Source: a virus
DNA: 20,315 bases
Strand: one strand, 5' to 3'
Virus record (IMG/VR): IMGVR_UViG_3300034198_004391
Span: 1 to 20,315 of that record
The notes under the pieces were generated by a model, which saw only the letters and a program-made list of their open reading frames with translations, did no database searches and was not told the origin of the DNA. The position numbers were made by a program, and so were the translations under genes. Shown here in pieces: positions 1 through 16,384 of this stretch (positions are counted from its first letter, which is position 1; each line of letters opens with the position of its first letter).

Positions 1-941
1 GCCTTGGTACGGTCGAACGAACCAGAGACAATACGTTCGGCACGAACGGCTGTTGATTTGTGGCTGAACCAATCGATGTACTCAACGATTGCTTGGAACG
101 CACCGAAGGCTGTGACTTTGATGTTCTCCTGTGTACCAGTAGACCCCTGATAGATACTCATTGCACCGAAGCGAGCCTCAGTTGCCTTGTTGAACTGGCG
201 CTTCTCTCCTGTAGAGAGACGGAAGTATGGTGCTGATTCAACTGTGCTTGGTAGTGACCACATCTTCTTGAAGATTTCTTCTACCTGATTGTCAGTTACA
301 GTTGTGTTTAACAACTGGTCAGCAACAGACTCGTATGTATGGATGCCAGTGTAGATTACATCTAGCATCTTGCGAAGGTCATTGACCTTGAGGTTGGCAT
401 TGGTTGTGTGGTGCAAGGAATACTTCGTATCCTTACGGAAGATGCCAGAGATTTGGTTAGAGCAGAACAATCGGTTAACGATTGGTGTGATACCTAGTGA
501 GCATGACCCATCGTGAGAGGTTCGTGCTAGTAGGTATGCAGCATGTGGGTCACCAGCAATCTTGACTTCTTCTGGTAGTGCAAGTGTCATCCAGACTTGA
601 GCACCACCACGCAACTCACCAGCTGCTGCATATCTGGCTTCACCAGATTCAACTAGTGCATCCAGCGCTGAGAACATCTCATCATTCTGGAACACCTTGT
701 ATCTACCACCAACTGTACCTAGTACAGATTGTCCGCCGTCGTTATCGGTACGGATAGTGGCGAATGTATTGGGTACTTCGAGACGGCTAACGCCGTTATC
801 ATTTAGTGCTAGTGCTTCGACATCGGCAAGTGATACTTGCCAATCAAGTCCTGCTTGTACTGCTGCATCATGTGCAGATGTTGCTGTTACTTCATAGCCA
901 GCAATGTTCATTGCTTGGCGTCGTGTTGTTTGTGTTGTCAT
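1..941 (-). CDS. DUF932 / phage-plasmid-like protein, C-terminus cut by window edge
   Basis: The leftward reading frame gives 313 complete codons from ATG at 941 to the window edge without a stop. The translation matches the DUF932 (TIGR03299, phage/plasmid-like protein) family as I remember it: a 'GGRYKVFQNDEMFSALDAL' stretch at residues 78-96, the 'ARTSHDGSCSLGITPIVNRLFC' type core near 139-160, and a 'FGAFQAIVEYIDWFSH' helix near 279-294. Family members are common in actinophages and plasmids; their biochemical role is not established. The start is supported by a good ribosome binding site (CCGAAAGGAAATGAT then ATG). It is the last gene of the leftward cluster visible here, 41 nt beyond the 89-aa gene, and a 14-bp perfect palindrome (971-984) lies just upstream. 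Family confidence is high, function unknown; the C-terminal part lies outside the window. Confidence 0.85.
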   Translation of the reverse strand, partial: MTTQTTRRQAMNIAGYEVTATSAHDAAVQAGLDWQVSLADVEALALNDNGVSRLEVPNTFATIRTDNDGGQSVLGTVGGRYKVFQNDEMFSALDALVESGEARYAAAGELRGGAQVWMTLALPEEVKIAGDPHAAYLLARTSHDGSCSLGITPIVNRLFCSNQISGIFRKDTKYSLHHTTNANLKVNDLRKMLDVIYTGIHTYESVADQLLNTTVTDNQVEEIFKKMWSLPSTVESAPYFRLSTGEKRQFNKATEARFGAMSIYQGSTGTQENIKVTAFGAFQAIVEYIDWFSHKSTAVRAERIVSGSFDRTK

Positions 942-970
942 ATCATTTCCTTTCGGGTCGGGTTGATTGG

Positions 971-984
971 GAGAATATATTCTC
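971..984. repeat. 14-bp perfect palindrome before the DUF932 gene
   Basis: GAGAATATATTCTC is fully self-complementary. It overlaps the last codons of the 89-aa gene and lies 30 nt upstream of the DUF932 start. It could be an operator or part of a promoter (it contains ATATAT), but nothing in the sequence decides this. Confidence 0.4.
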
Positions 985-1252
985 AGATACGGCTGTCAAA
1001 GTCAACAACTGCATCGGAGAGTTGGTCATAATAATGACCTTGATAGCAGACGATGCCCTCTTCTTGTACACGTACGAACCACGTGACATATGGGTCAGCG
1101 GTACGTTGGTACGGTTCAGTGGTCTGCCTGTCCTCTGTCCATAGACAGAGAGCTATGTAGCCAGATGAGTCCCATGCTGGCTTGATATCTATGATGACCG
1201 CCCCATTTCTACAGCGGTCACCACGTCGTGGTACTAGTGTCATTGTTCTCAT
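983..1252 (-). CDS. small hypothetical phage protein, 89 aa
   Basis: I chose ATG at 1252 because AGGAGG lies 6 nt upstream and the preceding gene stops at 1254, leaving a 1-nt gap typical of translational coupling. A longer reading from 1288 would overlap the neighbour and lacks this site. The protein starts MRTMTLVPRRGDRCRNG and has aromatic-rich beta-like segments ('GYIALCLW', 'DPYVTWFVRVQEEGIVCYQGHYYDQ'), two internal cysteine positions in the N-half and one near residue 69. There is no signal peptide or membrane segment. I do not recognise a family. The V-x-V-x-E pattern with a following helix-like stretch recalls small beta-alpha phage proteins, but this is weak. It is real on coding context, with unknown function. 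Confidence 0.7.
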   Translation of the reverse strand: MRTMTLVPRRGDRCRNGAVIIDIKPAWDSSGYIALCLWTEDRQTTEPYQRTADPYVTWFVRVQEEGIVCYQGHYYDQLSDAVVDFDSRI

Positions 1253-1253
1253 G

Positions 1254-1700
1254 TTATGCCTCCTGTATGTAGTCGACTCGTGTCTCATCGATAGACCATG
1301 TGTCTACCTCTGTGTTATCGCCATCGATATCCCAGTCTGGGTCTGCACTGATACCGATTTCTTCTGCGATTGAACGAGCATCATCTTCTGATGCTGCTGT
1401 CACCTTGAATGTTGCATACAAGGTGTATCGAACCTGTACTTCGTACTCCTTGGTGAACACCAGTTCATTACCGAATACCTCGTTGAGTATGTCCGATAGT
1501 TCACCGAAAGCAATAGTGCTTTCTTTATCACCATCATTGTCGGCGATTAGGTCATTGAGTTGTGTGTACAAGTCACGCACTTTGTTGCGATGTTCTTGCG
1601 TTAGGTTTGCATAGTTAGAAACCTTAGTTTCTAGGTCAGTCAGTTTCGTATTGAGTTGTTGTACTAGTACATCTGGTGCTACATATGCTTCTGTTGTCAT
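1254..1700 (-). CDS. hypothetical phage protein, coiled coil plus small beta-alpha module, 148 aa
   Basis: ATG at 1700 follows a strong site (CCGAAAGGAAACGATA). The in-frame extension to 1817 runs through the hairpin element and is not convincing. Residues about 10-55 are a likely coiled coil ('VLVQQLNTKLTDLETKVSNY' with regular leucine/valine spacing). Residues about 60-80 contain a helix. The C-terminal third has two beta-strand-like segments ('YEVQVRYTLYATFKVTA') followed by an acidic helix ('SEDDARSIAEEIG') and an acidic tail. The strand-strand-helix pattern resembles that of the 54-aa protein encoded at 3370-3534, with a shared V-x-A ... A ... A-x-E-I-G spacing. It heads a unit with the 89-aa gene and DUF932, behind copy 1 of the hairpin element. 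Function unknown. Confidence 0.75.
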   Translation of the reverse strand: MTTEAYVAPDVLVQQLNTKLTDLETKVSNYANLTQEHRNKVRDLYTQLNDLIADNDGDKESTIAFGELSDILNEVFGNELVFTKEYEVQVRYTLYATFKVTAASEDDARSIAEEIGISADPDWDIDGDNTEVDTWSIDETRVDYIQEA

Positions 1701-1738
1701 TATCGTTTCCTTTCGGTTGGGTTTGGTGTTGCTTCCTA

Positions 1739-1767
1739 TATATATGCACAGCTTTGCTGTGCTATCT
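1739..1767 (-). promoter_or_regulatory. gene-start hairpin element, copy 1
   Basis: A 29-nt sequence identical to copies at 3070-3098 and 4243-4271. It holds a perfect inverted repeat GCACAGC-TTT-GCTGTGC (1746-1762) flanked on the gene-proximal side by an alternating TATATAT run and on the other side by TATCT. It sits in the gap between two leftward genes, 46 nt before the 148-aa start. There is no T-run after the hairpin in the direction of transcription, so it is not a classical terminator. The TA run could serve as a -10 box and the hairpin as an operator. Promoter role is inference. Confidence 0.6.
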
Positions 1768-1777
1768 TTGACGCCTG

Positions 1778-1960
1778 TTATCCACAGCATGCGCCATCGT
1801 TGGTATCGGCACAGCATTCCGAACAGAATGGTTCGTTGTCCTTCATGCTATTGCGACACCCATATTCATCCATCGTGTTGGTACATGGATGTCCTTCGTA
1901 TCCGAAGCACACAAGTTGAGCCAGTTCTTCGGCTGTCATACCGTAGATATGTTTACTCAT
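1778..1960 (-). CDS. cysteine-rich small protein, probable metal binding, 60 aa
   Basis: ATG at 1960 overlaps the end of the 114-aa gene by 8 nt (ATGAGTAA) and has GGAGG about 7 nt upstream, within the acidic tail codons of that gene. The protein has an N-terminal helix 'MTAEELAQLVCFGYEG' then eight cysteines in its last 45 residues, including C-x7-C, then C at x8, then a 'FCSECC' cluster and a terminal 'ACCG'. Spaced CxxC pairs with a histidine nearby suggest a small zinc-binding fold. I do not recognise a named family. The gene ends 11 nt before copy 1 of the hairpin element and so closes a unit with GP88 and the 114-aa gene. Confidence 0.65.
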   Translation of the reverse strand: MSKHIYGMTAEELAQLVCFGYEGHPCTNTMDEYGCRNSMKDNEPFCSECCADTNDGACCG

Positions 1961-2297
1961 CGTCTTCCTCCTCGTCTTCATCTTCCATATGGTGTGGGTC
2001 AATAGCAAGTTTGCTATCGATTAGATACGCACGAACTGCGTTGTCGATACCTTCGTATCCATCCTCGTCGATAGATACTGGTTGCCAATGGTCGCGGATA
2101 ATCCACGCCATCAGTACCTCTCGTGAGAATACGGTTGAGATGTCATAGTCTTCTTGCTCTGCAAGCATGGCTTCTAACGAGTGCCAGATTGCTAGGTCTG
2201 TCATTGCTGAACGCCACACTTCTAGTGACTTGCGATAGGTTGTTAAAGATTCCGCAGCCTTACTTAGTAAGGCAACGCTGTCTTCTACTGTGTTCAT
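1953..2297 (-). CDS. hypothetical helical protein with acidic tail, 114 aa
   Basis: ATG at 2297 has a strong AAGGAGG site 5 nt upstream, 10 nt after the stop of the GP88 gene. The N-terminal 50 residues look helical ('VALLSKAAESLTTYRKSLEVW'), the middle carries 'WHSLEAMLAEQEDYDISTVFSREVLMAWIIRDHWQ', and the last dozen residues are almost all Asp/Glu. Those GA-rich codons also supply the ribosome binding site for the next gene, which overlaps by 8 nt. An acidic tail can indicate DNA mimicry or interaction with basic partners, but that is speculation. No family recognised. Confidence 0.7.
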   Translation of the reverse strand: MNTVEDSVALLSKAAESLTTYRKSLEVWRSAMTDLAIWHSLEAMLAEQEDYDISTVFSREVLMAWIIRDHWQPVSIDEDGYEGIDNAVRAYLIDSKLAIDPHHMEDEDEEEDDE

Positions 2298-2307
2298 ATA
2301 TTCCTCC

Positions 2308-3033
2308 TTATTTCTTTGCGATAGCAAAGCGGACACTTGCTTTACCATCGATACATAGTCGGCATGTTGCACAAGCACTACCTTCGGTAGTGATTAGTGG
2401 AATGGAGCCCAGATTCTCTGGACATTTCGCACCCACCTTGCCAGTCATACTGAGCATCGTGTCCTTTGCATCAGCAAAGGTGTCAGATAGATAGGCAACC
2501 TTTATCTTTACACCTTCGGTGCGAAGATAAACAGCGCTGGATTTATTCTCATCATCTGTACTGAAGTACAGTGACAGGTTGTCAAGTCCATCCAGAATTC
2601 TTGCAGCAGATGGGACTCGTGTATATACCCAGAACTTGATGTCTGGGTTCAGCATGATGACTGCTCGCCATGCTTTGGCATAGGTATCGGAGAAGAAATC
2701 CCCATCCCAATGGATGCGGAAGATAGGTTCGGCATCCTTTGCTTTGCAATCCAATCGGAATGAAGCAACCATGTCATCCAATAAATTGGACATAGTCTCT
2801 AGGTCTGCATCTTTAAGCAGGTTCCAGTTGTGTAAGAGAGTATCTCTTACTGATGGGAAGATGCGTTCCAACTTTCCAGCGTAGCAAATCTTCTCGCATA
2901 TACTGGTGGCGTTGGGACATGAGTACTGCTTACCACTGGGTAAGCCGAACGTGTTTGCAATTGCTGAGCGTTTGCCATTTGGTGTTGGCATATTGGTGAC
3001 CTTACGGTCATTCGAACGCTTTAGTCCTGCCAT
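2308..3033 (-). CDS. GP88-family phage protein (gene product 88), 241 aa
   Basis: The protein matches the GP88 family (named after a mycobacteriophage gene product) as I know it: an N-terminal 'GLPSGKQYSCPNATSICEKICYAGK' region with Cys39, Cys46 and Cys50 (CX6CX3C), the core 'FRIHWDGDF' (Arg106, His108, Asp110, Asp112), 'KFWVYTR' near 133-139, and a C-terminal cysteine set at 204, 221, 224 and 227 ('CATCRLC'). Two separated cysteine clusters are consistent with metal or iron-sulfur binding, which is inference; the family function is not established. ATG at 3033 has AAAGGAG 8 nt upstream and lies 44 nt behind hairpin element copy 2. It is the first gene of a three-gene leftward unit. Its coding sequence holds several perfect hairpins (2376, 2463, 2501, 2832 and 2928). 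Confidence 0.85.
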   Translation of the reverse strand: MAGLKRSNDRKVTNMPTPNGKRSAIANTFGLPSGKQYSCPNATSICEKICYAGKLERIFPSVRDTLLHNWNLLKDADLETMSNLLDDMVASFRLDCKAKDAEPIFRIHWDGDFFSDTYAKAWRAVIMLNPDIKFWVYTRVPSAARILDGLDNLSLYFSTDDENKSSAVYLRTEGVKIKVAYLSDTFADAKDTMLSMTGKVGAKCPENLGSIPLITTEGSACATCRLCIDGKASVRFAIAKK

Positions 3034-3069
3034 TGTGTTGCTCCTTTCGGTTGGTTGGTTTAGCCCTTA

Positions 3070-3098
3070 TATATATGCACAGCTTTGCTGTGCTATCT
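3070..3098 (-). promoter_or_regulatory. gene-start hairpin element, copy 2
   Basis: Identical 29-nt copy: TATATAT, then GCACAGC-TTT-GCTGTGC at 3077-3093, then TATCT, whose last bases overlap the stop codon of the 90-aa gene. It stands 44 nt before the GP88 start codon. It separates the upstream five-gene group from the GP88 group. Confidence 0.6.
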
Positions 3099-3369
3099 AT
3101 TCATGGTCGAAGTCACACCATGGTTCGAGATGATGCCCCTCCACTATCGTGTATGCGGGGGCTGTAGGGTAGCCACGCCATGTGACACCGTCTGGTAGTT
3201 GGATACTCTTATGAGTATCACCTTCCGATACCGCATAGATGGCTTCGATACATGGTTCCACCATGGTAAGTGGAACTGGCGGATAGTGATTGCTTTGCAA
3301 TTGGATGCTGATAGATTGCCGAATGTCAAGGACATTCTCTACTAAGTCGTGCGCCATGTTGCTTCCCAT
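3097..3369 (-). CDS. small hypothetical phage protein, 90 aa
   Basis: ATG at 3369 directly follows the TAA of the preceding 54-aa gene and has AAGGAGG 5 nt upstream, which decides against the second methionine at 3357. The N-terminal 40 residues look helical ('HDLVENVLDIRQSISIQLQS'), followed by a Pro/Val segment and 'CIEAIYAVSEGD'. The end is 'VTWRGYPTAPAYTIVEGHHLEPWCDFDHE', rich in His, Trp and acidic residues. There is no membrane segment. I do not recognise the family. It is the last gene of the upstream leftward unit. Perfect hairpins at 3202-3219 and 3321-3337 lie within it. Confidence 0.7.
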   Translation of the reverse strand: MGSNMAHDLVENVLDIRQSISIQLQSNHYPPVPLTMVEPCIEAIYAVSEGDTHKSIQLPDGVTWRGYPTAPAYTIVEGHHLEPWCDFDHE

Positions 3370-3534
3370 TTATTCCTCCTTGAGTCCAGCGAAGTGTTCC
3401 ACTTCGGCATAGTTGTCATCTTGTATCCAATCGCCAATTTCATTGGCGAGTTCTATTGCTTGCTCTTGATTGTCTGCTTCTACCTCTTGGTAGAAGAGGA
3501 ACTTGCGCTCCTCTGTTACGATATAACTAGGCAC
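3370..3534 (-). CDS. small hypothetical protein with GTG start, 54 aa
   Basis: A GTG start at 3534 overlaps the last 8 nt of the 107-aa gene, has AAGGAGG 6 nt upstream, and the frame runs to a TAA that abuts the next ATG at 3369. The protein reads MPSYIVTEERKFLFYQEVEA and then an acidic helix 'DNQEQAIELANEIGDWIQ', ending 'VEHFAGLKEE'. The pattern is two strands then a helix, as in many tiny phage proteins, and resembles the C-terminal module of the 148-aa protein (1254-1700). The exact junctions on both sides make it very likely real despite its size. Two perfect hairpins (3390-3406 and 3431-3449) lie in its short coding sequence, each with the loop falling on one GAA codon. Confidence 0.7.
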   Translation of the reverse strand: MPSYIVTEERKFLFYQEVEADNQEQAIELANEIGDWIQDDNYAEVEHFAGLKEE

Positions 3535-3850
3535 CTAGCGCCTCCTTGTCTGCTTCAATTGCATACTTTGCAATTGCGTCGAACTCACTCATCCCCCAGC
3601 CCAGCAATAATTGCTTTAGCAAATTGGCTGCTGACTCTGGGATATTCTCTTCCACCTGACTGATTACATCAGTCACCATGGATTCATAGTCATGCTTGAT
3701 GATGTCGCTGATACTTGAGACGCGACCCTGAAATACGCGAGTCATTTGGATGAGGTCATCCCATGCTTCGCGGTCATTCTCGACTACCAATAGGTAGTCC
3801 CTTACAAATAACTCGCCTGCGGTGAAGCCACGCTGTTCCTTGATGTCCAT
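3527..3850 (-). CDS. hypothetical helical phage protein, 107 aa
   Basis: ATG at 3850 overlaps the preceding stop (TAATG) and has GGAGA about 7 nt upstream; the in-frame extension to 3907 would overlap the 58-aa gene and is less likely. The protein appears all-helical: 'GFTAGELFVRDYLLVVENDREAWDDLIQM' (8-36), 'VSSISDIIKHDYESMVTDVISQVEE' (about 43-67) and 'SAANLLKQLLLGWGMSEFDAIAKYAIE' (about 72-98). It is acidic and probably soluble. Similar small helical proteins occur in actinophage accessory regions, but I cannot name the family. Perfect hairpins at 3556, 3657 and 3782 lie within it. Confidence 0.72.
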   Translation of the reverse strand: MDIKEQRGFTAGELFVRDYLLVVENDREAWDDLIQMTRVFQGRVSSISDIIKHDYESMVTDVISQVEENIPESAANLLKQLLLGWGMSEFDAIAKYAIEADKEALGA

Positions 3851-4026
3851 TAGATTTCTCCTATCTCTTGTAGGTAATTCACCGCTTTGGTGAATACTTC
3901 TTGCCATGAGTTACCATCTACTTCTCCTAGAGAAGTGTCATCCATCTTCAGGAACTCTACGAAGTAGGTTGTTCCGCGAGATGCGAACTCGTCTTCTTGC
4001 CAGTTGAGTTTTACTTTGTAATCCAT
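3850..4026 (-). CDS. small hypothetical protein, 58 aa
   Basis: ATG at 4026 shares its A with the TAA of the preceding gene, and its own TAA shares a base with the next ATG at 3850, so both ends form TAATG junctions. CGAGAGGAACGATA upstream is a good ribosome binding site close to that of the 148-aa gene. The protein starts MDYKVKLNWQEDEFASRG, continues 'TTYFVEFLKMDDTSLGEVDG' and ends in a helix 'SWQEVFTKAVNYLQEIGEI', again a strands-then-helix layout. No family recognised. A divergent copy of the hairpin element (4071-4089) lies 45 nt before its start. The double TAATG coupling makes it convincing. Confidence 0.68.
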   Translation of the reverse strand: MDYKVKLNWQEDEFASRGTTYFVEFLKMDDTSLGEVDGNSWQEVFTKAVNYLQEIGEI

Positions 4027-4199
4027 TATCGTTCCTCTCGAATTGTTGTTGCCCAGTGTTGCTCTATATCAGCAGACCTACGGTCTGCTATCTTGATATC
4101 CACGTAGTCCCAGATGAGTGCTACAATGAGGATGCTTGCAACGACGAAGAGAATCCCCATTGCGAGGAAGTCTCCCCAATAAAGTCCATAACCGTTCAT
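4026..4199 (-). CDS. small single-pass membrane protein, 57 aa
   Basis: I chose ATG at 4199 because GGAG lies 7 nt upstream; a TTG at 4220 would add 7 residues but has no comparable site. Residues about 11-30 ('FLAMGILFVVASILIVALIW') form one clear transmembrane helix, followed by a charged tail 'DYVDIKIADRRSADIEQHW' with the basic residues near the end. The positive-inside rule would put the C-terminus in the cytoplasm. Small membrane proteins of this type in phages can be holin-like or superinfection-exclusion-like, but the location in an early-type cluster, away from any lysin, gives no support for a particular role. It is the first gene of the leftward cluster, 51 nt behind element copy 3. 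Confidence 0.7.
   Translation of the reverse strand: MNGYGLYWGDFLAMGILFVVASILIVALIWDYVDIKIADRRSADIEQHWATTIREER
4071..4089 (-). repeat. divergent copy of the hairpin element inside the membrane-protein gene
   Basis: AGCAGACC-TAC-GGTCTGCT is a perfect 8-bp inverted repeat. It is flanked by CTATAT on one side and ATCTTGA on the other, as in copy 3, although the stem sequence is different. It lies 45 nt before the ATG at 4026, matching the 44-51 nt spacing of copies 1-3. The conserved flanks with a changed but still perfect stem suggest that pairing is what is kept. Confidence 0.5.
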
Positions 4200-4242
4200 A
4201 ACTTTTCTCCAATCTGCCAATCGAATTTCGGCTGGCTCTCCC

Positions 4243-4271
4243 TATATATGCACAGCTTTGCTGTGCTATCT
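4243..4271 (-). promoter_or_regulatory. gene-start hairpin element, copy 3
   Basis: Third identical 29-nt copy, hairpin at 4250-4266, 51 nt before the start of the membrane-protein gene. As the outermost copy at the head of the leftward cluster, it is the best candidate for the main leftward promoter, with the TATATAT run as a possible -10 box on the minus strand. Confidence 0.6.
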
Positions 4272-4547
4272 TGAGATGTGTGTGCGCCTGCATCACGGCG
4301 CCCGCCTGTTAGTAGCCAATACGCGTGAGGTATTAGTAGTCCATATACGTGCATGCAGGTCTGCCCGCGTATACGTATGTATGCAGCGGTGTGTGTATGT
4401 GGGGTGTGTGTTCATGTATGTATGACATGACCAACAGGCTCAAGACACGCCTCCTGTCCGTCTGAATTTGACAATCTGGGGACGATGTGGGAGAATGGTG
4501 TCATTCAATCAGCGCTGGGCTGGTCGAATCAACCGAAAGGCAGCAAG
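4272..4547. other. divergent intergenic control region
   Basis: No convincing gene is seen here. The region separates the leftward cluster from the rightward genes. It contains degenerate direct repeats: TTAGTAG at 4309 and 4333 (24 nt apart), and TATACGT...GCATGCAG versus TATACGT...GTATGCAG starting at 4344 and 4370 (26 nt apart). It continues with a long alternating purine-pyrimidine stretch rich in TG and TA (about 4370-4432). A promoter-like pair lies at 4468-4496. Likely uses are promoter/operator or origin-type function; the sequence does not decide. Confidence 0.5.
4468..4496 (+). promoter_or_regulatory. probable sigma70-type rightward promoter
   Basis: A perfect -35 box TTGACA (4468-4473) is followed after exactly 17 nt by GAGAAT (4491-4496), which matches the -10 consensus at four of six positions including the key A and T. 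The expected start of transcription is near 4503, about 45 nt before the ATG at 4548. Direction and spacing fit the two small rightward genes. Confidence 0.55.
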
Positions 4548-4814
4548 ATGATTACAGCATGGACACACGATGATTTACTAGTAAATCTCAAGGATGAAGT
4601 TAACGAAGTTAAAGCGTTCTATAACGTACCTTCGCTCGACCATGTACCCGATTTCGAATTGACTACAGTCAAGTACGCTCAACTTGGTGACCTAGTTCCA
4701 CTAGGTAAGGGTCGCGTAGGTATCGTTTTCGACGTAGTCGAAAGCTTCGGCGTCCGCGAGTTAAGTATCGTGGCATCGAATCTTCGCGTAGTGCTTAAGC
4801 GAGTAAGCGCATGA
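4548..4814 (+). CDS. small hypothetical phage protein, 88 aa
   Basis: ATG at 4548 follows AACCGAAAGGCAGCAAG, the same AACCGAAAGG motif used by several leftward genes. An in-frame start at 4485 would fall inside the predicted promoter and is rejected. The protein has an N-terminal helix 'HDDLLVNLKDEVNEVKAFYNV' and a C-terminal half rich in Val, Gly and Leu ('LGDLVPLGKGRVGIVFDVVESFGVRELSIVASNLRVVLKRV') suggesting a small beta barrel. I do not recognise it. It overlaps the next gene by ATGA. Its coding sequence holds a 16-bp palindrome (4572-4587) and perfect hairpins at 4690-4706 and 4727-4743. Confidence 0.7.
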   Translation: MITAWTHDDLLVNLKDEVNEVKAFYNVPSLDHVPDFELTTVKYAQLGDLVPLGKGRVGIVFDVVESFGVRELSIVASNLRVVLKRVSA

Positions 4815-5005
4815 GAGTGGTTACATGCGACGATAACGGTACTCTCGCGGTGGTACGCGAGGGGAAGTTAGATATATATTCACTCATCGGCGAAGCCGAT
4901 ATGCCAGAGGATGGGAAGCGATGGAGTATCTACTCCATACTTCACGCGATAGGCGAGGATGATAATCAGGCGCGTCTATATGGATGGTTCGCTGAACGTC
5001 TATAG
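4811..5005 (+). CDS. small hypothetical phage protein, 64 aa
   Basis: The start ATG overlaps the preceding TGA (ATGA), indicating coupled translation; there is no strong separate ribosome binding site. The N-terminal half is beta-like ('VVTCDDNGTLAVVREGKLDIYSL') and the C-terminal half is a probable helix ('WSIYSILHAIGEDDNQARLYGWFAERL'). No family recognised. It is the last gene before the strong terminator at 5077-5107. Perfect inverted repeats lie at 4844-4861, 4886-4900 and 4921-4938. Confidence 0.65.
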   Translation: MRVVTCDDNGTLAVVREGKLDIYSLIGEADMPEDGKRWSIYSILHAIGEDDNQARLYGWFAERL

Positions 5006-5076: not shown

Positions 5077-5107
5077 GGGGCAGGGGGCAACCCTTGCCCC
5101 TTTTTTT
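5077..5107 (+). terminator. strong Rho-independent terminator
   Basis: GGGGCA-GGG ... CCC-T-TGCCCC (5077-5100) forms a nine-pair GC-rich stem with one bulged T and a 5-nt loop, followed directly by seven T residues (5101-5107). It ends the transcript of the two small rightward genes and insulates terL from it. Confidence 0.85.
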
Positions 5108-5285: not shown

Positions 5286-5337
5286 ACGGCGAAGTTCCAC
5301 TGAGCCGTAAACGGCGGTCTTAACGACCGCCTTTATT
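5286..5337 (+). promoter_or_regulatory. possible attenuator-like leader upstream of terL
   Basis: Hairpin 1 (5286-5308) pairs ACGGC with GCCGT, with an inner AGT/ACT stem and a symmetric GA/GA internal loop. Hairpin 2 (5313-5331) is GGCGGTC-TTAAC-GACCGCC followed by TTTATT, a weak terminator-like end. Between them GCCG (5304-5307) can instead pair with CGGC (5312-5315), which would disrupt both. This 1:2 / 2:3 / 3:4 arrangement is the usual attenuator logic. The alternative stem is only 4 bp, so the switch is uncertain; the downstream hairpin is clear. Confidence 0.4.
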
Positions 5338-5406: not shown

Positions 5407-7296
5407 TTGGAAAGAAATCTAACCCCCGAAGAGGCTCGTAAAGAACTCATCGACTTGGTACGCCAAGGGCGCACCATCGCCGATGCCTTAAAAGTTATTG
5501 GTCGCTCTCGTTCTTGGTATGACACCCAACGGCGCGAAGCTCAAGGCTTCGCTGCCTATGTAGACAATGCTCGGTTTAGAACAGCAGACCTCGCAGAAGA
5601 TGCTCGGTCTGGTCTATCTGACTTTGCCGAATTCTCCGAGAAGTATCTTGGTGCAAAAGTCTGGGACCACATGCTTAACGTGGTCGATATGCTAGAAGGT
5701 CGGGAGCCCCGCTGGATTGACCCAGCAATGACCTACGAAAAAGGCTCTGGCGGGCTATCTCGTTTGCTGGTAAACGTACCACCAAACCACGCCAAGACGA
5801 TGACTATCACGATTAACTACGTGACTTACCGTATTGTTAAGAATCCTAACATCTCGGTTATCGTTATTTCGAAAACCCAAGAGCAAGCAAAGAAGTTTCT
5901 TTACGCTATCAAGCAGCGTTTAACGCATCCGCGTTACGCTGACTTGCAAGCAGCCTTCGGTCCAGCCGATGGCTACAAAGCTACCGCTGACCAGTGGTCG
6001 GCTAATAAGATTTACCTTGGCGGAGATATCCGCGACAACGACGCTAAAGACCCTACGGTCGAAGCTATCGGTATGGGCGGTCAGGTCTACGGCGCACGTG
6101 CAGACCTAATCGTGCTAGACGACGTGGTGACGTTGTCGAACGCCAATGAATGGGCGAAGCAACAGGAATGGATTAGGCAGGAAGTTGCCTCACGTCTTCC
6201 ACCAGGAGGCGGTCAGCTTCTTGTAGTCGGTACTCGTGTATCAGCAGTCGACTTGTATAAAGAACTTCGCAACCCCCAGCATTACACGGATGGTGTACTT
6301 CCGTGGTCATATTTGTCCATGCCAGCAGTACTTGAGTACGCTGACAATCCAAAGGATTGGAAAACCCTTTGGGCAAAATCAGAGCAACCTCTTACAGACA
6401 CTGACGTGCCTGACGAGAATGGGAACTTTGACCGATGGACAGGCGAACGCTTAACGGCGGTTCGCAACGAGGCAGGACCATCTAAATGGTCACTGGTTTA
6501 CCAGAACCTCGATATCGCGGAGAATGCAATCTTCGACCCGATATGCGTCAGAGGCGCAGTTAATGGAATGAGAAAATCGGGTGCGCTTATTGCAGGCGCA
6601 GCGGGTCATCCTGAAAATGCACAGAACTTCTATCGCATTATTGGTATTGACCCAGCGATGTCTGGCGACACCGCAGCTGTAGCTTACGCAGTTGACCGCA
6701 GAACACACAAGCGCTATGTCATGGACGTTCACGTCATGAGCAGCCCCACACCTGCAGCAATTCGCTCCTTGATAAGAGAGTGGACGGATGCGTATCAACC
6801 GCATACCGTTATAGTTGAGTCAAACGCTTTTCAGCTTTTCTTGACACAGGACGAGGAAATTAGAAACTTCCTCGCCACACGTGGTATTAATTACCGACCA
6901 CATTACACAGGTAATAACAAGCAAGACCCAGAGTTCGGCGTAGCCTCTCTGGCACCACTGTTCGGTACCGTTACTAAGCGAGACGGTAACAACAACAACT
7001 TGAAGCATGCAGACGATAACATTATTGAGTTGCCTGATTCTTCAAGAAATGAACATGTTAAAAAGTTAATAGAACAACTTGTAACCTGGCAGCCAGGAGT
7101 ACAGGGCAAGCGATTAAAGATGGACGCCGTTATGGCGTTATGGTTCTGTGAAATCGTAGCTCGTGATGTTCTACTTACTTCAGCCAATGTACCAAACTTC
7201 CTTAAGAACGAATTCACACCACGTTCCGAAGTCGAATCAAGGTACATCGTCAACTTAGATGACTTAGCTGCAGCGCAGCGAATAGCGAGATTGTGA
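5407..7296 (+). CDS. terL: terminase large subunit (packaging ATPase and nuclease), 629 aa
   Basis: TerL pumps DNA into the procapsid through the portal and cuts the concatemer. Residues 1-50 form a helix-turn-helix-like N-terminus ('TIADALKVIGRSRSWYDTQR'). The ATPase has a variant Walker A 'VPPNHAKT' (124-131), Walker B 'LIVLDD' (234-239) and a coupling motif 'VGTR' (274-277). The RNase H-like nuclease shows 'IIGIDPAMSGD' (Asp415), 'VIVESNAFQ' (Glu471) and 'KMDAVMALW' (Asp573), which are the three expected acidic residues. Length is a little above average because of the N-terminal helix-turn-helix part, which may replace some small-subunit function. No separate small subunit is seen. The start is TTG with GGAG 5 nt upstream; no ATG gives a better N-terminus. 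Portal follows after 4 nt. Confidence 0.95.
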   Translation: MERNLTPEEARKELIDLVRQGRTIADALKVIGRSRSWYDTQRREAQGFAAYVDNARFRTADLAEDARSGLSDFAEFSEKYLGAKVWDHMLNVVDMLEGREPRWIDPAMTYEKGSGGLSRLLVNVPPNHAKTMTITINYVTYRIVKNPNISVIVISKTQEQAKKFLYAIKQRLTHPRYADLQAAFGPADGYKATADQWSANKIYLGGDIRDNDAKDPTVEAIGMGGQVYGARADLIVLDDVVTLSNANEWAKQQEWIRQEVASRLPPGGGQLLVVGTRVSAVDLYKELRNPQHYTDGVLPWSYLSMPAVLEYADNPKDWKTLWAKSEQPLTDTDVPDENGNFDRWTGERLTAVRNEAGPSKWSLVYQNLDIAENAIFDPICVRGAVNGMRKSGALIAGAAGHPENAQNFYRIIGIDPAMSGDTAAVAYAVDRRTHKRYVMDVHVMSSPTPAAIRSLIREWTDAYQPHTVIVESNAFQLFLTQDEEIRNFLATRGINYRPHYTGNNKQDPEFGVASLAPLFGTVTKRDGNNNNLKHADDNIIELPDSSRNEHVKKLIEQLVTWQPGVQGKRLKMDAVMALWFCEIVARDVLLTSANVPNFLKNEFTPRSEVESRYIVNLDDLAAAQRIARL

Positions 7297-11263: not shown

Positions 11264-11439
11264 GAGCACTCAAGAAGTTCGAAGAGAACCTTGAGTACCT
11301 TGGCTTTGACATGGCTCCACTTGCTTGGGATATTGCACGTATGAACTTCCCAAACGATGATGACCGACTTGCTCTATTAGAAGAATTGACTGTTAAGAAG
11401 GAGGTCACACCAGGTGTCAATGACGGAATGGTGGAATGA
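11260..11439 (+). CDS. small acidic-helical protein, 59 aa
   Basis: ATG at 11260 overlaps the preceding TGA (ATGA) and has AAGGAG 9 nt upstream; the stop lies 26 nt inside the next gene. The sequence MRALKKFEENLEYLGFDMAP then 'LAWDIARMNFPNDDDRLALLEELTVKKEVT' looks fully helical with an amphipathic pattern. The AAGGAGG that drives the next gene falls within its 'KKEV' codons. No family recognised. The coupling at both ends makes it likely real. Confidence 0.62.
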   Translation: MRALKKFEENLEYLGFDMAPLAWDIARMNFPNDDDRLALLEELTVKKEVTPGVNDGMVE

Positions 11440-14400
11440 CCCACGGTATGAACAGCAACCTTCTAAAGTTAAAACATCTAAAATAGATGATTTTAAAAAG
11501 CAAACTGACAAAACCAAGGTAGGAAAAGCTGAAGCAGCTATCGTACCCAAGGTAGCAGAGGCTCTTGAGGCAGGTAAGAAGAAGCCAATTCTTGGCGCAG
11601 TTCTTAACCCAGCAATGCGTGTGCTTGAAACATTCGGTACACGTGTTGTTCAGCCAGCTACTCAAGCAGTATCAACTGCACTTCTTACGCCACAAGCTAT
11701 GGCTGCTGGCAAAGGAAACGTTGTTGAATCTTTTCGTTATGCTAAGAAGCAATCTGAAAAAATTTCAATGGGTCAGGCACTTGCAGGCGGTGTTGGAAAG
11801 ATTGCATCTCCAGTATTAGGTGATATAACAAACACTACATTTCTTGATGAAGACTTTGATATCTTCAATGACAAGAAGCGTGACAAGGCATTCAGAGATG
11901 AATGGATTGGTATTGTTGCATCTGGTTCTACTGATTTAGCTTTAGCTGCACTTGGAACTAAAGGCGCTGGCGGAACCATTCGTTATGCTGGAAAGAAAGT
12001 TGCTGGACCAAAGCGTCTTGCTACACCAGATGACGTTAATAAGTTTCGTGAAGAACTTGAGACAGCAGTCACTGAATCTGTATTGCCAGCTACCCAACGT
12101 ACCAAAAGCGGTCTTACCGTATTGGTTGATGACGCTGTCAAAGAAAAAGATTTAACTAAGCTTGCTGCTAATCCACTTATCAGTGAAACAGCAAACCCAT
12201 ACCGTACGGCAACAATCGTATCTAGGTTAGATAACCACCGCGATGTAGCAGATTACTTGCTAGCAGAACGCGGTGACTTGGACGCATTTAACCGCTTCTT
12301 TAATAATAAGCCACTTGATGCTGACCATATAGATGACTATGGGTTTGATAAGACTTCTCCTCTTTCTGATTGGTCGAAAGTAAATGAAGAACTTTTGGAC
12401 CCTAAGATGGTATCAAGAATGCAACGCATCCTTGATGCCAAGAAAGCGTCTGACCCTAAACTTGCACGTGCATTAGAAGAGTTTGCAACTAACCTACCTC
12501 GTGGTGCTAACGTTGAAAGTTACCGTCCAGGACGTTTCGCTGCACTTGAATCACTTGGTCTTGCCAAGAAAAAGATTGCACTTCAAGCACAGTACGGCGA
12601 CCTTAAGTTATTTGGTGCCGACGGTGGCGAAGGTTGGAAGACAGAAGTTTACCAAACAAATACTTATGACCGAGTCATTCGTACAATTGCTTGGGTTGGC
12701 TCAGGTCGTCCACAGGGATACATCAATATTTCTAACCCTCGTTCCTTTGAAGCAGCTAATGATTTACTATCAGACCTGAATCGTCTTCAATTTTTAAGTG
12801 GAGACGCAGGCGCATTGTTCAAGCGCAAGATGGTAAATAAATTTCTCAATGCACAAGATGATACCCAACGTGCTATTGCTTTAGGTGAAATCGAAGAGAC
12901 GGTTATGATTCGCCTAGCTAAGTTCTACGGCGTAACAGACCTTCAAGATATTCGTACACCTACTGACGCCATTGACCAGATTAAACAATGGCGCAATGGA
13001 GCCAATGAATCACGTTCAACCATTAAGCAGTTTGCGGTTAAGAACGGTTGGATTCCAGCTGCAGATGGTTCTATTAACGTACAGAACTTTATCTCTGTAG
13101 CAAATGAAGCACAGACAATCCCAATGCTTGATTTCCGTCGACTAGAAGCAGAAGTAATTATCAATGCTCGTCGTGCTGCAGGCAAGGGAACAAAAGTAAC
13201 TGAAGGTCAATATCGCGGAGCAATAGCATCCAAAGCTGCAATGAACACTGGTCAGTTCCTTGATTTAGCTAACATGGTTTTCTCAAACCTTAACTTGCTT
13301 CGCCTTGCTTACATTCCTAAGAACTCTATGGTTGACCCATTTGCTCGCGCATCTATGGCGCTTGAGTCATTTGATTTAATACGCAACTCATCTAAGGCAA
13401 TGGATAACGTTGCATACAACACAAGCCTACGTGCCGAATCACTAAAAAGATTTAAGCCAGGTTCACCAAAGGCTAAAGCTCGCAAGCGAGCAGAGGCTGC
13501 TAGGTTTGAAATTGAGCAGTACCGCAGCGAAATGGAACCAAAGGTTGCTGCATGGGAAAAGGCTCAAGACCTAGTTGGTCCAGCAGAAAAAGCTTTTAAG
13601 AAAGCGGAAACTGCCCGTAATAAGGCACTAGCTCGCGCTAACAAAGCAACACCTGCGGATGCAGCAAAGGCACAGACTGCGCTGTACGCAGCAGAAGATG
13701 CTCTCTATGAGGCACGTGTAGCACTTGGCGAAGCCAATGATGAACTGTCACGTTCTGCAGATGCTGTCAACGGTTATGCACAACTTATTGACAAGACTCG
13801 CAAAGACTGGGTTGAATACGAGACTTCACGCGGGGAAGCCAAAGCTGGCATCAAACGTATCGGTCAAGAAGACGATGTCATTGTAAGTTCTAGTGGCAAA
13901 CAATACACCATTCAAGGTCTTGCAGACCCTAACGTACGTGGTGTTGGTCCCTATATGTCTGAAGTGGATTCAGCACAGAACTTCTTAACAACTTCTATGC
14001 AATCAGAGATTGCTCGCAAGCTTCGTGCAGACGGTACACGTTTTGTAAAGATTAACCGTAAAGACCGAGCAGAGTACATGAACGCTTTGACTCATATTGC
14101 TAACCGTCAGATTCGTAACGAAATTGATTTGCCTCTTGGCATGATGATTCGTAACGACTCTACTGGTCAGATTCTTGAATGGCTGTACAGTCCAGCAGGC
14201 AAAGAGTACAGATTGCGTATGGGTAGTCGTTTTAATAAAGACCTTACTCGCGATGACTTGGCTAACTGGATTGATACAACCAGAGAAAAAATCTTTATGA
14301 TGTATCCAGACGAATCACTTCGTCGTACAATTTTAGACCGTCCAGTTACAGTTGATGAAGTTGATTCAATCTTGTACGGACGTCCAGATTTGCCAGAAAC

Positions 14401-16384
14401 AATTGACGGTCCAAGTCTTAAACTTAACGACTTGAATAATTTAGAACGTGGATTGGCTAAGGCTCAAGGTGGAGTTGACGCAGCATGGCGTATCTTGTCT
14501 GCTGCTGAAAACCGTTTAGTACGCAACCCACTGTTTTTAATCTACACTCGTCAAGAAATGAAGACGATGGTAGATGCAGCAGAACGTGCTGGCATCAATG
14601 TATCTGAAGCGGTTGTCAATCATGAAATCCGCCAAGCTGCATACCGCAAAGCACTGTCACGTGTTGAAGAAACACTATACTCATCACGTCGCCTTAGCAA
14701 CGGTATGTACGTAGCACGTTATGCCATGTCATTCCCGCTAGCATTCTTTAACTCACAAGCGGTAGCGCTTCGCCTATTGGCTCGCAACCCAATGAATGCA
14801 TACTGGTACAACAGTATCCAGCAAGCATTTGATAACTTTGAATCATACGAAGACCAAGAAGGAAATACTTACAAGAGCATCAAGGATGTTCCACCAGGAA
14901 CTCAAGTATCTGTAAAGTATCCAATCCCATCAGGGTTCGGTGATTCTCTAGAAAAACTTCCAGTTGTCGGCAAGCTTGCAAAGCAAGCGCTTTCACCTTA
15001 CACAGATTCTCGTGGTGGTGGAGTTCGATGGAACCCTAAGCAACTTGAGTTCATGCTTGCAGACCCTTCCGTATCTTGGTTCGGTGGTATTGCAATTTCC
15101 GAAATCGTTAAGAACGGTATCGGTGTTGGTCCATGGAAGATTTACGGTGAGCAGGTAGCACAAGGATTACGTAACATGCTTGGCGATGACGTATACGAAT
15201 CAAGCGTACTTTATGGTGGATACCCACAAGAAGGTGGCGGATTCGTAGAGACAACAGCCAACGCAGTAATTCCTGGTTATATGAAGTCTGGTCTTGCAGC
15301 ACTTGGATTATTTAGAGACGACCGCTTCCTTGATGAAACAAACGTTCAATATCGTATGGCTTATAGCCAATGGGATAAAAACGGTCGCGTAGGCGAGCCT
15401 CCAACCATGACACAGGCAGCGCGTAACGCTGGAGTAATGTCATTTATTAGAGCCATTGTTCAGTTCTCTATGCCAATTTCTACATCATTTGACCCTGTTA
15501 CACGTGCAGCAACTGCATGGTATGCAGAGTTGGTTGAAGCAGCAGGTGGAGATTACAAGCTTGCAGACCAGATGTTTGCCGAAGACTGGGGAGCTGATGG
15601 AATTGCACTTGTTGGGTCCAACAAGAAAAACATTTCTGGTTTAGCCACAACATTAGATGACTTGAATGTTCTTCGCAAGAATCCAAAGTTAATTGAAATG
15701 CTTGGTCGTGCTAACACAAAGTATGCAGCAATGCTTTCATCTGGCTACGGAGACTTGGCAACAAGTTCTGAATACTCAACAGAAGTTGCAGCAATCTTTA
15801 AGAAGCTTAACTTTCCTGGCTTCAGTAGAACTCCAATCACAACCAAGAAAGATGAGAAAGAGTTTACTCAGAGTGTTGAGGCTCGTCGTGGTTGGTATGA
15901 ATTCCAAAAGGCTCAAGAATGGCGTGACGCCAAGATGGTTGAGTATGGGATTGATTCACCAAACGAAGTTATGTTTGAGCGAAGCGGTATCAAACGCGAG
16001 TACGACAAGATGGTTCAATCTATCGTTGACGACTTCCCAGCTTGGGCAGCAGACCGCAAGAACACAAACGATGAGTACTGGTCTGTAATGATTCCATCTG
16101 TTCAAAAGATTGCAGATGATATCGACTGGAGAACTTACGCTTTCAATAAGGGAAGTTCTAAGTGGGAAGAGATTGCCTACTGGCTAGAAGAAGCAAAAAG
16201 CTTCAACAAGGCTTATGAGGCACAAAACAATACGAACGACCGCAAACTTGTTCTCAAGCAACAGTTCGCTCAGTTCCATTACGACTTCTTGCAGACAGCA
16301 TCAGAAGAATTTGCTGCTTTTGCATATCGATGGTTAAACAATATGCCTCAACTAGATACAGAATTCACGGTGACTAATGGCTAA
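11414..16384 (+). CDS. giant putative internal/ejected virion protein, 1656 aa
   Basis: I chose GTG at 11414 because AAGGAGG lies 9 nt upstream; ATG at 11420 is possible but 15 nt from that site. No known catalytic motif stands out. Residues about 60-120 contain small hydrophobic helices ('ILGAVLNPAMRVLETFGTRVVQPATQAVSTALL'), about 672-800 is a long charged coiled coil ('KAFKKAETARNKALARANKA'), and near 1098-1125 there is an amphipathic segment 'MYVARYAMSFPLAFFNSQAVALRLLARN'. The C-terminal 350 residues are mixed alpha/beta with many Trp/Tyr. Size, coiled coil and membrane-active-looking helices recall internal virion (ejection) proteins of podoviruses, but I see no clear homology and a MuF-like or polyvalent protein is also possible. 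It sits between portal and scaffold and overlaps the next gene by 8 nt. Confidence 0.75.
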   Translation: MSMTEWWNDPRYEQQPSKVKTSKIDDFKKQTDKTKVGKAEAAIVPKVAEALEAGKKKPILGAVLNPAMRVLETFGTRVVQPATQAVSTALLTPQAMAAGKGNVVESFRYAKKQSEKISMGQALAGGVGKIASPVLGDITNTTFLDEDFDIFNDKKRDKAFRDEWIGIVASGSTDLALAALGTKGAGGTIRYAGKKVAGPKRLATPDDVNKFREELETAVTESVLPATQRTKSGLTVLVDDAVKEKDLTKLAANPLISETANPYRTATIVSRLDNHRDVADYLLAERGDLDAFNRFFNNKPLDADHIDDYGFDKTSPLSDWSKVNEELLDPKMVSRMQRILDAKKASDPKLARALEEFATNLPRGANVESYRPGRFAALESLGLAKKKIALQAQYGDLKLFGADGGEGWKTEVYQTNTYDRVIRTIAWVGSGRPQGYINISNPRSFEAANDLLSDLNRLQFLSGDAGALFKRKMVNKFLNAQDDTQRAIALGEIEETVMIRLAKFYGVTDLQDIRTPTDAIDQIKQWRNGANESRSTIKQFAVKNGWIPAADGSINVQNFISVANEAQTIPMLDFRRLEAEVIINARRAAGKGTKVTEGQYRGAIASKAAMNTGQFLDLANMVFSNLNLLRLAYIPKNSMVDPFARASMALESFDLIRNSSKAMDNVAYNTSLRAESLKRFKPGSPKAKARKRAEAARFEIEQYRSEMEPKVAAWEKAQDLVGPAEKAFKKAETARNKALARANKATPADAAKAQTALYAAEDALYEARVALGEANDELSRSADAVNGYAQLIDKTRKDWVEYETSRGEAKAGIKRIGQEDDVIVSSSGKQYTIQGLADPNVRGVGPYMSEVDSAQNFLTTSMQSEIARKLRADGTRFVKINRKDRAEYMNALTHIANRQIRNEIDLPLGMMIRNDSTGQILEWLYSPAGKEYRLRMGSRFNKDLTRDDLANWIDTTREKIFMMYPDESLRRTILDRPVTVDEVDSILYGRPDLPETIDGPSLKLNDLNNLERGLAKAQGGVDAAWRILSAAENRLVRNPLFLIYTRQEMKTMVDAAERAGINVSEAVVNHEIRQAAYRKALSRVEETLYSSRRLSNGMYVARYAMSFPLAFFNSQAVALRLLARNPMNAYWYNSIQQAFDNFESYEDQEGNTYKSIKDVPPGTQVSVKYPIPSGFGDSLEKLPVVGKLAKQALSPYTDSRGGGVRWNPKQLEFMLADPSVSWFGGIAISEIVKNGIGVGPWKIYGEQVAQGLRNMLGDDVYESSVLYGGYPQEGGGFVETTANAVIPGYMKSGLAALGLFRDDRFLDETNVQYRMAYSQWDKNGRVGEPPTMTQAARNAGVMSFIRAIVQFSMPISTSFDPVTRAATAWYAELVEAAGGDYKLADQMFAEDWGADGIALVGSNKKNISGLATTLDDLNVLRKNPKLIEMLGRANTKYAAMLSSGYGDLATSSEYSTEVAAIFKKLNFPGFSRTPITTKKDEKEFTQSVEARRGWYEFQKAQEWRDAKMVEYGIDSPNEVMFERSGIKREYDKMVQSIVDDFPAWAADRKNTNDEYWSVMIPSVQKIADDIDWRTYAFNKGSSKWEEIAYWLEEAKSFNKAYEAQNNTNDRKLVLKQQFAQFHYDFLQTASEEFAAFAYRWLNNMPQLDTEFTVTNG

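Follow-up and report, generated by a model that had tools for sequence, protein, structure and literature searches.

Genes and hairpins of the window

The window, as the whole stretch of 20,315 nucleotides of freshwater phage DNA analysed here will be called (IMG/VR record IMGVR_UViG_3300034198_004391), carries a series of small, mostly leftward genes on its left, including a DUF932 gene and a gp88-family gene, followed by the rightward gene for the terminase large subunit (terL). A giant protein of 1656 amino acids matches solely phrog families without known function, and neither known RNA families nor tRNAs were found within the window. A scan for perfect stems of at least 7 bp with loops of 3-5 nt detected 28 distinct hairpins in positions 1-5005 and 31 up to 5.6 kb, most of them intragenic. 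The original prediction had listed 23 start positions and quoted three examples, every one of which proved exact on rescanning; absent from that list were the hairpins at 299, 825, 1133, 1506 and 3477. The features are as follows, with strand given for genes and terminators.

180-941, minus: DUF932 gene (PF06067), homology extending toward the window's left end
299-317: hairpin, 7 bp, loop 5, within the DUF932 gene
825-841: hairpin, 7 bp, loop 3, within the DUF932 gene
1133-1150: hairpin, 7 bp, loop 4, in a small leftward gene (983-1252); same column in 11/22 homologues
1377-1395: hairpin, 7 bp, loop 5, gene 1254-1700 (minus)
1506-1523: hairpin, 7 bp, loop 4, same gene
1616-1633: hairpin, 7 bp, loop 4, same gene
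1746-1762: intergenic palindrome GCACAGC-TTT-GCTGTGC, copy 1, promoter-like, in the leader of the leftward gene with start codon at 1700
2257-2273: hairpin, 7 bp, loop 3, gene 1953-2297 (minus); compensated homologue GCTTTAC..GTAAAGC
2308-3033, minus: gp88-family gene (PF17338, phrog_1392)
2376-2392: hairpin, 7 bp, loop 3, gp88 gene; 8 homologues
2463-2480: hairpin, 7 bp, loop 4, gp88 gene
2832-2850: hairpin, 8 bp, loop 3, gp88 gene; columns 192-195 in 16/26 homologues, stems differing at the same place
2928-2945: hairpin, 7 bp, loop 4, gp88 gene
3077-3093: intergenic palindrome, copy 2, upstream of gp88
3202-3219: hairpin, 7 bp, loop 4, gene 3097-3369 (minus); 10/24 homologues
3321-3337: hairpin, 7 bp, loop 3, same gene; 24/24 homologues, with variable loops
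3390-3406: hairpin, 7 bp, loop 3, gene 3370-3534 (minus)
3431-3449: hairpin, 8 bp, loop 3, same gene
3477-3496: hairpin, 8 bp, loop 4
3556-3576: hairpin, 8 bp, loop 5, gene 3527-3850 (minus)
3657-3675: hairpin, 8 bp, loop 3, same gene; both sides of one pair altered in a relative
3782-3799: hairpin, 7 bp, loop 4, same gene; 8/16 homologues
3877-3895: hairpin, 7 bp, loop 5, gene 3850-4026 (minus)
3920-3936: hairpin, 7 bp, loop 3, same gene
4071-4089: hairpin, 8 bp, loop 3, gene 4026-4199 (minus)
4250-4266: intergenic palindrome, copy 3, upstream of the leftward gene whose start is at 4199
4690-4706: hairpin, 7 bp, loop 3, rightward gene 4485-4814
4727-4743: hairpin, 7 bp, loop GTA; in one relative (L004) the stem is identical and the loop inverted to TAC
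4921-4938: hairpin, 7 bp, loop 4, rightward gene 4811-5005
5084-5100, plus: G+C-rich hairpin with a T run after it, by sequence apparently an ordinary intrinsic terminator, left out of the anomaly
5313-5331, plus: G+C-rich hairpin followed by TTTATT, terminator-like by sequence
5407-7296, plus: terL, the right edge of the hairpin-dense zone in relatives

Dinucleotide shuffles of positions 1-5005 gave 1.0 hairpin on average (maximum 3 in 40 shuffles) against the 28 found. Within the left genes, 25 hairpins compare with 1.46 in shuffles preserving both protein and codon use (maximum 5 in 100); under the latter null neither mirror repeats (1 vs. 0.74) nor direct repeats (2 vs. 1.0) were enriched. 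Chance and base composition are ruled out as causes by these two kinds of shuffle. The extraordinary density within coding sequence that had been predicted is therefore real, the protein- and codon-preserving shuffles, in which similar counts had been named as grounds for rejecting it, having yielded quite dissimilar ones. In the remaining 15.3 kb, 9 hairpins were found where dinucleotide shuffles predict 3.2. The virion genes had been expected to be poorer, which holds to the extent that hairpins are far fewer from terL rightward, but a weaker yet real excess persists outside the left zone.

Arms measure 7-9 bp, the stem-length distribution dropping above 9 bp, and loops of 2-6 nt are enriched with a peak at 3-5; a 5'-C..G-3' closing pair is preferred, as is the loop length, in line with the geometry of a physical hairpin. 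No regular spacing was detected, the variation being near that of random placement in most genomes. In freshwater phages the reading-frame classes of hairpins are all used about equally.

Distribution across phages and hosts

Taken together, the window and five long relatives have 158 perfect hairpins in rightward genes lying outside the hairpin-dense zone, against 25 expected; the excess thus extends over the genome, with a hot zone, and is not confined to accessory genes. Freshwater relatives show a 5-8x excess genome-wide, with peak density in the 6-7 kb before terL; this zone is ~3x denser, and genes within it reach about 8-19x. The hot zone largely coincides with the leftward, presumably early, operon. 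Its rightward genes are as dense as the leftward ones (12 hairpins against 1.0 expected).

The same excess occurs in the Beephvirinae, which comprise Streptomyces phages such as Manuel, FlowerPower and Zeigle (actinobacteriophage cluster BF), with 6-10x in 8/8 of the isolated phages. Homologues shared with this subfamily include the terminase (43%), portal, capsid, helicase and primase, at roughly 31-46% identity, a level that marks the two groups as relatives and carries no claim of subfamily membership. The freshwater phages, at 42-48% GC, carry a gp88/DUF932 operon and have their hot zone ahead of terL; in the Beephvirinae, GC content is close to 60% and the enrichment is even. Values of 0-1.7x were obtained for T7, lambda, phiC31, a gp88-carrying mycobacteriophage, two TerL relatives and actinobacterial genomes. 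A host mutational bias is ruled out by host-type genomes at ~1.4x together with phiC31 at 0.5-0.8x. Homologues of gp88 that are 62-66% identical and belong to another phage group lack the excess, which excludes the gene family as its cause. Protein constraint does not produce the hot zone either, since slow and fast proteins are similarly enriched within each zone, and a metagenome assembly artefact is unlikely given that cultured isolates carry the excess. The excess thus follows the phage lineage rather than host, gene family or habitat, and is tied neither to early genes nor to the window's phage alone.

Among replication genes no correlate of the trait was found: helicase and primase are also shared by the hairpin-poor ct2KA10 and L077, and Microwolf shares these two as well as endonuclease VII. 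Because hairpin-poor relatives and the mycobacteriophage possess much of the replication module, no gene could be linked to the trait. With regard to an actinobacterial host, a WhiB gene (PF02467) is present in one relative (G002).

Evolution of stems and loops

Substitutions were compared as pairwise counts among relatives, whose sequences are not phylogenetically independent, and in these counts the divergence of four-fold sites in stems is 0.54-0.67 of that at gene-matched sites outside them (0.54 in leftward genes), with no slowing of loops. The slowing is present at all codon positions; for pairs of third codon positions, the per-site rate in arms is 0.66-0.86 in leftward and 0.43-0.78 in rightward genes. 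An analysis by position within the stem, in which duplicate removal inflates absolute rates so that the relative pattern alone is usable, placed the stem below both loop and flank without a strong inner-outer gradient.

Single mismatches are depleted to 0.36 of neutral in leftward genes, and the ratio of double to single changes is 0.16-0.32 (0.32 in leftward genes). Compensatory changes in homologues, as originally predicted, are present above chance, with complementary doubles at 6.2x the neutral expectation in leftward and 3.7x in rightward genes, against just 1.05-1.4x for non-complementary doubles. Where flanks diverge by <4%, 14 complementary and 0 non-complementary doubles were counted, with 1.7 of any kind expected under independence. 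Eight distinct loop inversions, in which the loop is reverse-complemented between identical stems, were found against 0.63 expected by chance; plain loop reversal occurred once.

Origin of the hairpins

With arms of 7-9 bp and spacers of 3-5 nt, these short and perfect inverted repeats are best read as a DNA-level trait of one actinobacterial podovirus-like phage lineage. Selection for mRNA secondary structure, which might for instance protect early transcripts from RNase or slow their translation, is unlikely. It would fit the overlap of most of the hot zone with the leftward operon and the survival of the excess in codon-preserving shuffles, and in leftward genes G.U-type changes are modestly less depleted than A.C (0.43 vs. 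0.26; 28 vs. 9). However, the two are equal in rightward genes (0.42 vs. 0.43), leftward genes tolerate A.A and G.G as well as G.U, and near-hairpins carrying a single mismatch show about the same enrichment whatever its type (G.U 132/55, A.C 133/61). With no general preference of G.U over A.C, the folding of mRNA explains the hairpins poorly; GNRA and UUCG loops, moreover, show no sense-strand bias, loop inversions are DNA events and the rightward genes of the hot zone match the leftward in density. Structured early mRNA, one of the meanings first proposed, is accordingly unsupported as a general cause. Another of these, a hairpin-spreading element, fares no better. It is highly improbable that the genes are strewn with copies of a mobile or repetitive element or with operators of a single phage protein, although GCACAGC-NNN-GCTGTGC occurs three times in the window (1746, 3077 and 4250 being one identical intergenic element) and also precedes leftward genes in relatives. 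These intergenic copies alone are alike; the intragenic stems have no common sequence, failing to show the shared copy sequence expected of REP-like dispersed repeats, and change in place, in a compensatory manner, rather than arriving as copies.

Selection for a DNA function is a possible but less probable account: phage replication, priming, recombination or packaging might, for example, make use of cruciforms or single-strand hairpins. Under this account any stem sequence would serve, and hence sequence-diverse hairpins and positional turnover are expected; at gp88 columns 192-195, homologues do carry hairpins with unrelated stems in the same column. The slowing of stems but not loops at all codon positions, the compensatory pairs, the independence of the enrichment from protein conservation and the sharp 7-9 bp window are consistent with such a function, and a selection-only simulation yields the right length distribution. 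The same simulation makes doubles far too rare (double/single ratio <=0.06 vs. 0.16-0.32), spacing is near random, no candidate reader protein was identified, and the equal use of reading frames in freshwater phages runs contrary to selection through synonymous sites. A DNA-level recognition role, as in the protein-binding sites first suggested, may nonetheless apply. More tentatively still, the lineage could maintain roughly 60-110 short, sequence-independent DNA hairpins per genome, within its genes and on both strands, for a replication, recombination or packaging step, with its genes written around a structural code superimposed on the genetic one.

The favoured account, to which about an even chance is given, is that of DNA-level hairpins kept perfect by template switching between their arms, probably with weak selection in addition. 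During phage replication, the nascent strand would copy one arm off the other (template switching, or sequence-directed mutagenesis), which would homogenise the arms, yield compensatory pairs in a single step and occasionally invert the loop. Hallmarks of this process are present in the inverted-repeat excess over codon-preserving nulls, the homogenised arms and the spacer inversions with unchanged arms, the latter two being published hallmarks of template switching (PMC8604942, PMC8794818). A signature of hairpin birth was not seen: among 837 clusters of substitutions (at least 3 within 9 nt, close relatives) one was explained by a hairpin, against 2 in the mirror control, and hairpins with multiple substitutions had no clear one-arm bias. 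Weak selection against mismatched arms, or reversion-biased correction, may contribute too, because stems evolve more slowly than purely neutral template switching permits. In toy simulations, template switching alone at a rate giving 8x left stem divergence near neutral, unlike the observed 0.54-0.67, and unlimited switching does not predict the fall-off in stem length above 9 bp. A toy mixture of switching at ~10x the point rate per near-palindrome with weak selection (scaled strength ~1.5) gave a stem/outside four-fold divergence of 0.45-0.53, single mismatches at 0.38-0.40 of neutral and a double/single ratio of 0.08-0.24, compared with 0.54, 0.36 and 0.32 in leftward genes; its density was too high (20-24x vs. 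8-19x in hot-zone genes). As far as these models can indicate, neither template switching alone nor selection alone reproduces the data.

Comparison with known systems and significance

An excess of short inverted repeats is a known phenomenon, and it is its strength that is unusual here. As cited in PMC4060949, the excess in bacterial coding sequences has been attributed to sequence-directed mutagenesis by Ladoukakis and Eyre-Walker and the bacterial excess to mRNA stability by Katz and Burge. The bacterial case resembles the present one in its short perfect repeats, small spacers and excess within coding sequence; the bacterial genomes measured reach about 1.3-1.7x (one 0.6x), however, and these phages 5-10x genome-wide and ~8-19x in hot-zone genes. 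As in template switching in yeast genes (PMC8604942) and RNA genes (PMC8794818), arms are homogenised through paired changes and spacers completely inverted, but the multi-nucleotide one-arm births reported there were not seen, and the arms are shorter, yeast spacer inversions having been found just with arms >9 bp (PMC8604942). Perfect inverted repeats, the same class of feature, have been surveyed in 118,019 genomes, viruses included; as that survey used arms >=10 bp, arms of 7-9 bp fall under its cut-off (PMC13155455). In N4-type hairpin promoters a hairpin at the promoter is read by a virion RNA polymerase; most hairpins here are intragenic. A partial literature search found no earlier report of such an excess in phages.

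Either template-switch mutation or selection on mRNA structure has been invoked to explain short inverted repeats inside coding sequence, on the basis of weak signals (~1.4x in the bacteria measured here). A lineage with a 5-10x signal, hundreds of sequenced relatives, cultured Streptomyces members and close outgroups free of the signal makes this old question testable. Should the hairpins be by-products, the lineage would constitute a natural system of template switching at a high rate; should they be under selection, they would represent a previously unrecognised structural layer in the genes of tailed phages.

Hairpin density and gene context

Perfect inverted repeats with stems of at least 7 bp and loops of 3-5 nt are concentrated at the left end of the window, as the original prediction had claimed from 23 hairpins counted by eye. 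All 23 starts were recovered in a window scan at these thresholds, together with five more (299, 825, 1133, 1506 and 3477), giving 28 distinct hairpins in positions 1-5005 against 1.0 in dinucleotide shuffles; the remaining 15.3 kb holds 9, with 3.2 expected. The excess survives 100 shuffles keeping each protein and its own codons, where the 25 hairpins of the left-hand genes compare with a null mean of 1.46 and a maximum of 5; the prediction had named similar counts in such shuffles as refuting it, and so it withstands this test. Under the same null, neither mirror repeats (1 vs 0.74) nor direct repeats (2 vs 1.0) are enriched in these genes. Close direct 7-mers in coding sequence show a mild genome-wide enrichment in freshwater genomes (166 vs 102). 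The arrangement comprises the following features:

180-941, minus strand: DUF932 gene
2308-3033, minus strand: gp88-family protein gene
1746-1762, 3077-3093 and 4250-4266, minus strand: one repeated intergenic element
5407 (start), rightward block: terL

The rightward block also encodes a portal and, in the virion region, a 1656-aa protein of phrog_10618 (11414-16384, plus strand); a similar-sized protein lies at the same place in the Beephvirinae, Streptomyces phages related to the freshwater group. All window hairpins are intragenic except those at 1746, 3077, 4250, 5084 and 5313. The last two resemble terminators. The repeated element, located about 40-50 nt upstream of a leftward start codon, reads on the minus strand as an AAGATA-like sequence followed by GCACAGC-AAA-GCTGTGC and then ATATATA(A)GG. 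A loose form of this pattern matches 72 sites across 31 related sequences, and the relatives' copies have the same flanks with loop AAA, GAA or TTC. In general form the element is a promoter-like leader of GATA, GCACAGC-NNN-GCTGTGC and ATATATA(A)GG, in that order.

Distribution among phages and hosts

Among 80 viral contigs found through terminase, the long ones carry about 3-10 hairpins/kb in the 6-7 kb or so before terL (the hot zone) and about 1/kb elsewhere. Against codon-preserving shuffles, freshwater genomes are enriched 5-8x overall, with 97 hairpins vs 7.0 expected in hot-zone leftward genes, 12 vs 1.0 in rightward genes within the zone and 158 vs 25 in those outside it. Protein conservation has no effect on enrichment within either zone, so the hot zone is defined by position and is not a product of relaxed protein constraint. 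One equally hairpin-rich contig (L123, 82,688 bases) has some two times the normal genome length of 41 kb and may be a dimer or two assemblies joined together.

Each of eight Beephvirinae isolates from Streptomyces shows an excess, of 6.3-9.9x; close examination of two of them found it spread evenly over the whole length and both strands. Values of 0-1.2x were obtained for T7, lambda, phiC31 and P-SSP7, for the gp88-carrying mycobacteriophage Microwolf, and for ct2KA10 and L077, with terminases 47-49% identical. Hairpin richness does not extend to the gp88 homologues of a larger group of low-GC phages, and Streptomyces and other bacterial genomic stretches show hairpins at about 1.4x. The trait therefore follows phage lineage, patchily, and host, gene family and habitat were rejected as determinants. 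N4 (first 45 kb) shows a mild coding-hairpin excess (28 vs 11.8, 2.4x).

The trait is also patchy with respect to terminase similarity, being missing in ct2KA10 and L077 and found at 43% identity in phage Manuel, so that there were either two gains or a loss. Among the phages compared, its presence does not follow that of any replication gene. Endonuclease VII is a junction-cutting enzyme type; a gene of this family (PF02945) occurs in the relative G002 (L084:8505-8810, plus strand), as well as in Manuel and Microwolf.

Evolution of stems and loops

Homologue alignment for compensatory changes, proposed with the original prediction, revealed hairpins at shared columns with compensated or wholly different stems, many others being clade-specific. 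Complementary double changes reach 6.2x (leftward genes) and 3.7x (rightward) the neutral expectation, and non-complementary ones 1.05x and 1.36x, all counts here being pairwise and thus not independent events. Where local divergence is below 4%, all 14 doubles counted are complementary, with 1.7 of any kind expected under independence. When stems are compared with outside sequence matched by gene, divergence at their four-fold sites is 0.54 of the outside value in leftward genes and 0.67 in rightward genes; for loops the figure is 1.04-1.35. Inversion of the spacer to its reverse complement, with stems unchanged, was detected in 8 distinct cases vs 0.63 expected; the window hairpin at 4727 has loop GTA and its counterpart in the relative L004 has TAC. 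Template switching, in which a nascent strand copies one hairpin arm from the other, has been reported to homogenise arms and invert spacers (PMC8604942, PMC8794818).

DNA hairpin or mRNA structure

Enrichment covers loops of 2-6 nt, peaking at 3-5, and stems of 7-9 bp, longer ones falling away, with a preference for a 5'-C..G-3' closing pair; these preferences indicate that real hairpin physics matters. One-mismatch near-hairpins, read as mRNA, are equally enriched for G.U (132/55) and A.C (133/61), with 39/12.5 vs 49/17 in Beephvirinae, and stable RNA tetraloops show no sense-orientation preference. For substitutions between relatives, G.U and A.C stand at 0.42 vs 0.43 in rightward genes and 0.43 vs 0.26 in leftward genes, where A.A and G.G mismatches are tolerated as well as G.U. 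Strand symmetry thus holds outside the leftward operon, in which a smaller earlier count (G.U 28 vs A.C 9) hints more strongly than any other result that RNA may contribute.

Proposed mechanism

Template switching is expected to create hairpins too, through clustered one-arm changes. Such births fit 1 of 837 substitution clusters, and where a hairpin has several changes these do not clearly favour the same arm. At third-codon-position pairs, doubles number 61 vs 74 (leftward) and 122 vs 227 (rightward) expected under neutral switching. In simulations, which were toy models with the acceptance of amino-acid changes set arbitrarily, switching by itself, with the rate set to yield about 8x, left stem divergence near neutral, and faster switching overshot density and doubles. 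Selection alone gave slow stems and the correct stem-length fall-off with far too few doubles, while a mixture of both came closest yet overshot density. Reversion-biased switching would mimic selection.

An excess of short inverted repeats is already known, as are two explanations for it, sequence-directed mutagenesis (template switching) and mRNA stability (PMC4060949); a survey published in 2026, which took in 118,019 genomes, set its lower limit for arm length at 10 bp (PMC13155455). The effect size and the restriction to one phage lineage are not described in the searchable literature; this lineage specificity and the hot zone before terL lie outside what the proposed mechanism explains. 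The excess, its lineage specificity, the strand symmetry outside the leftward operon, the paired evolution and the loop inversion are shown by the data, whereas replication as the setting, the switching and the selection are inferred. Most likely, these are DNA hairpins that template switching keeps perfect by copying one arm from the other as the phage replicates; weak selection or a bias towards reversion probably adds to this.
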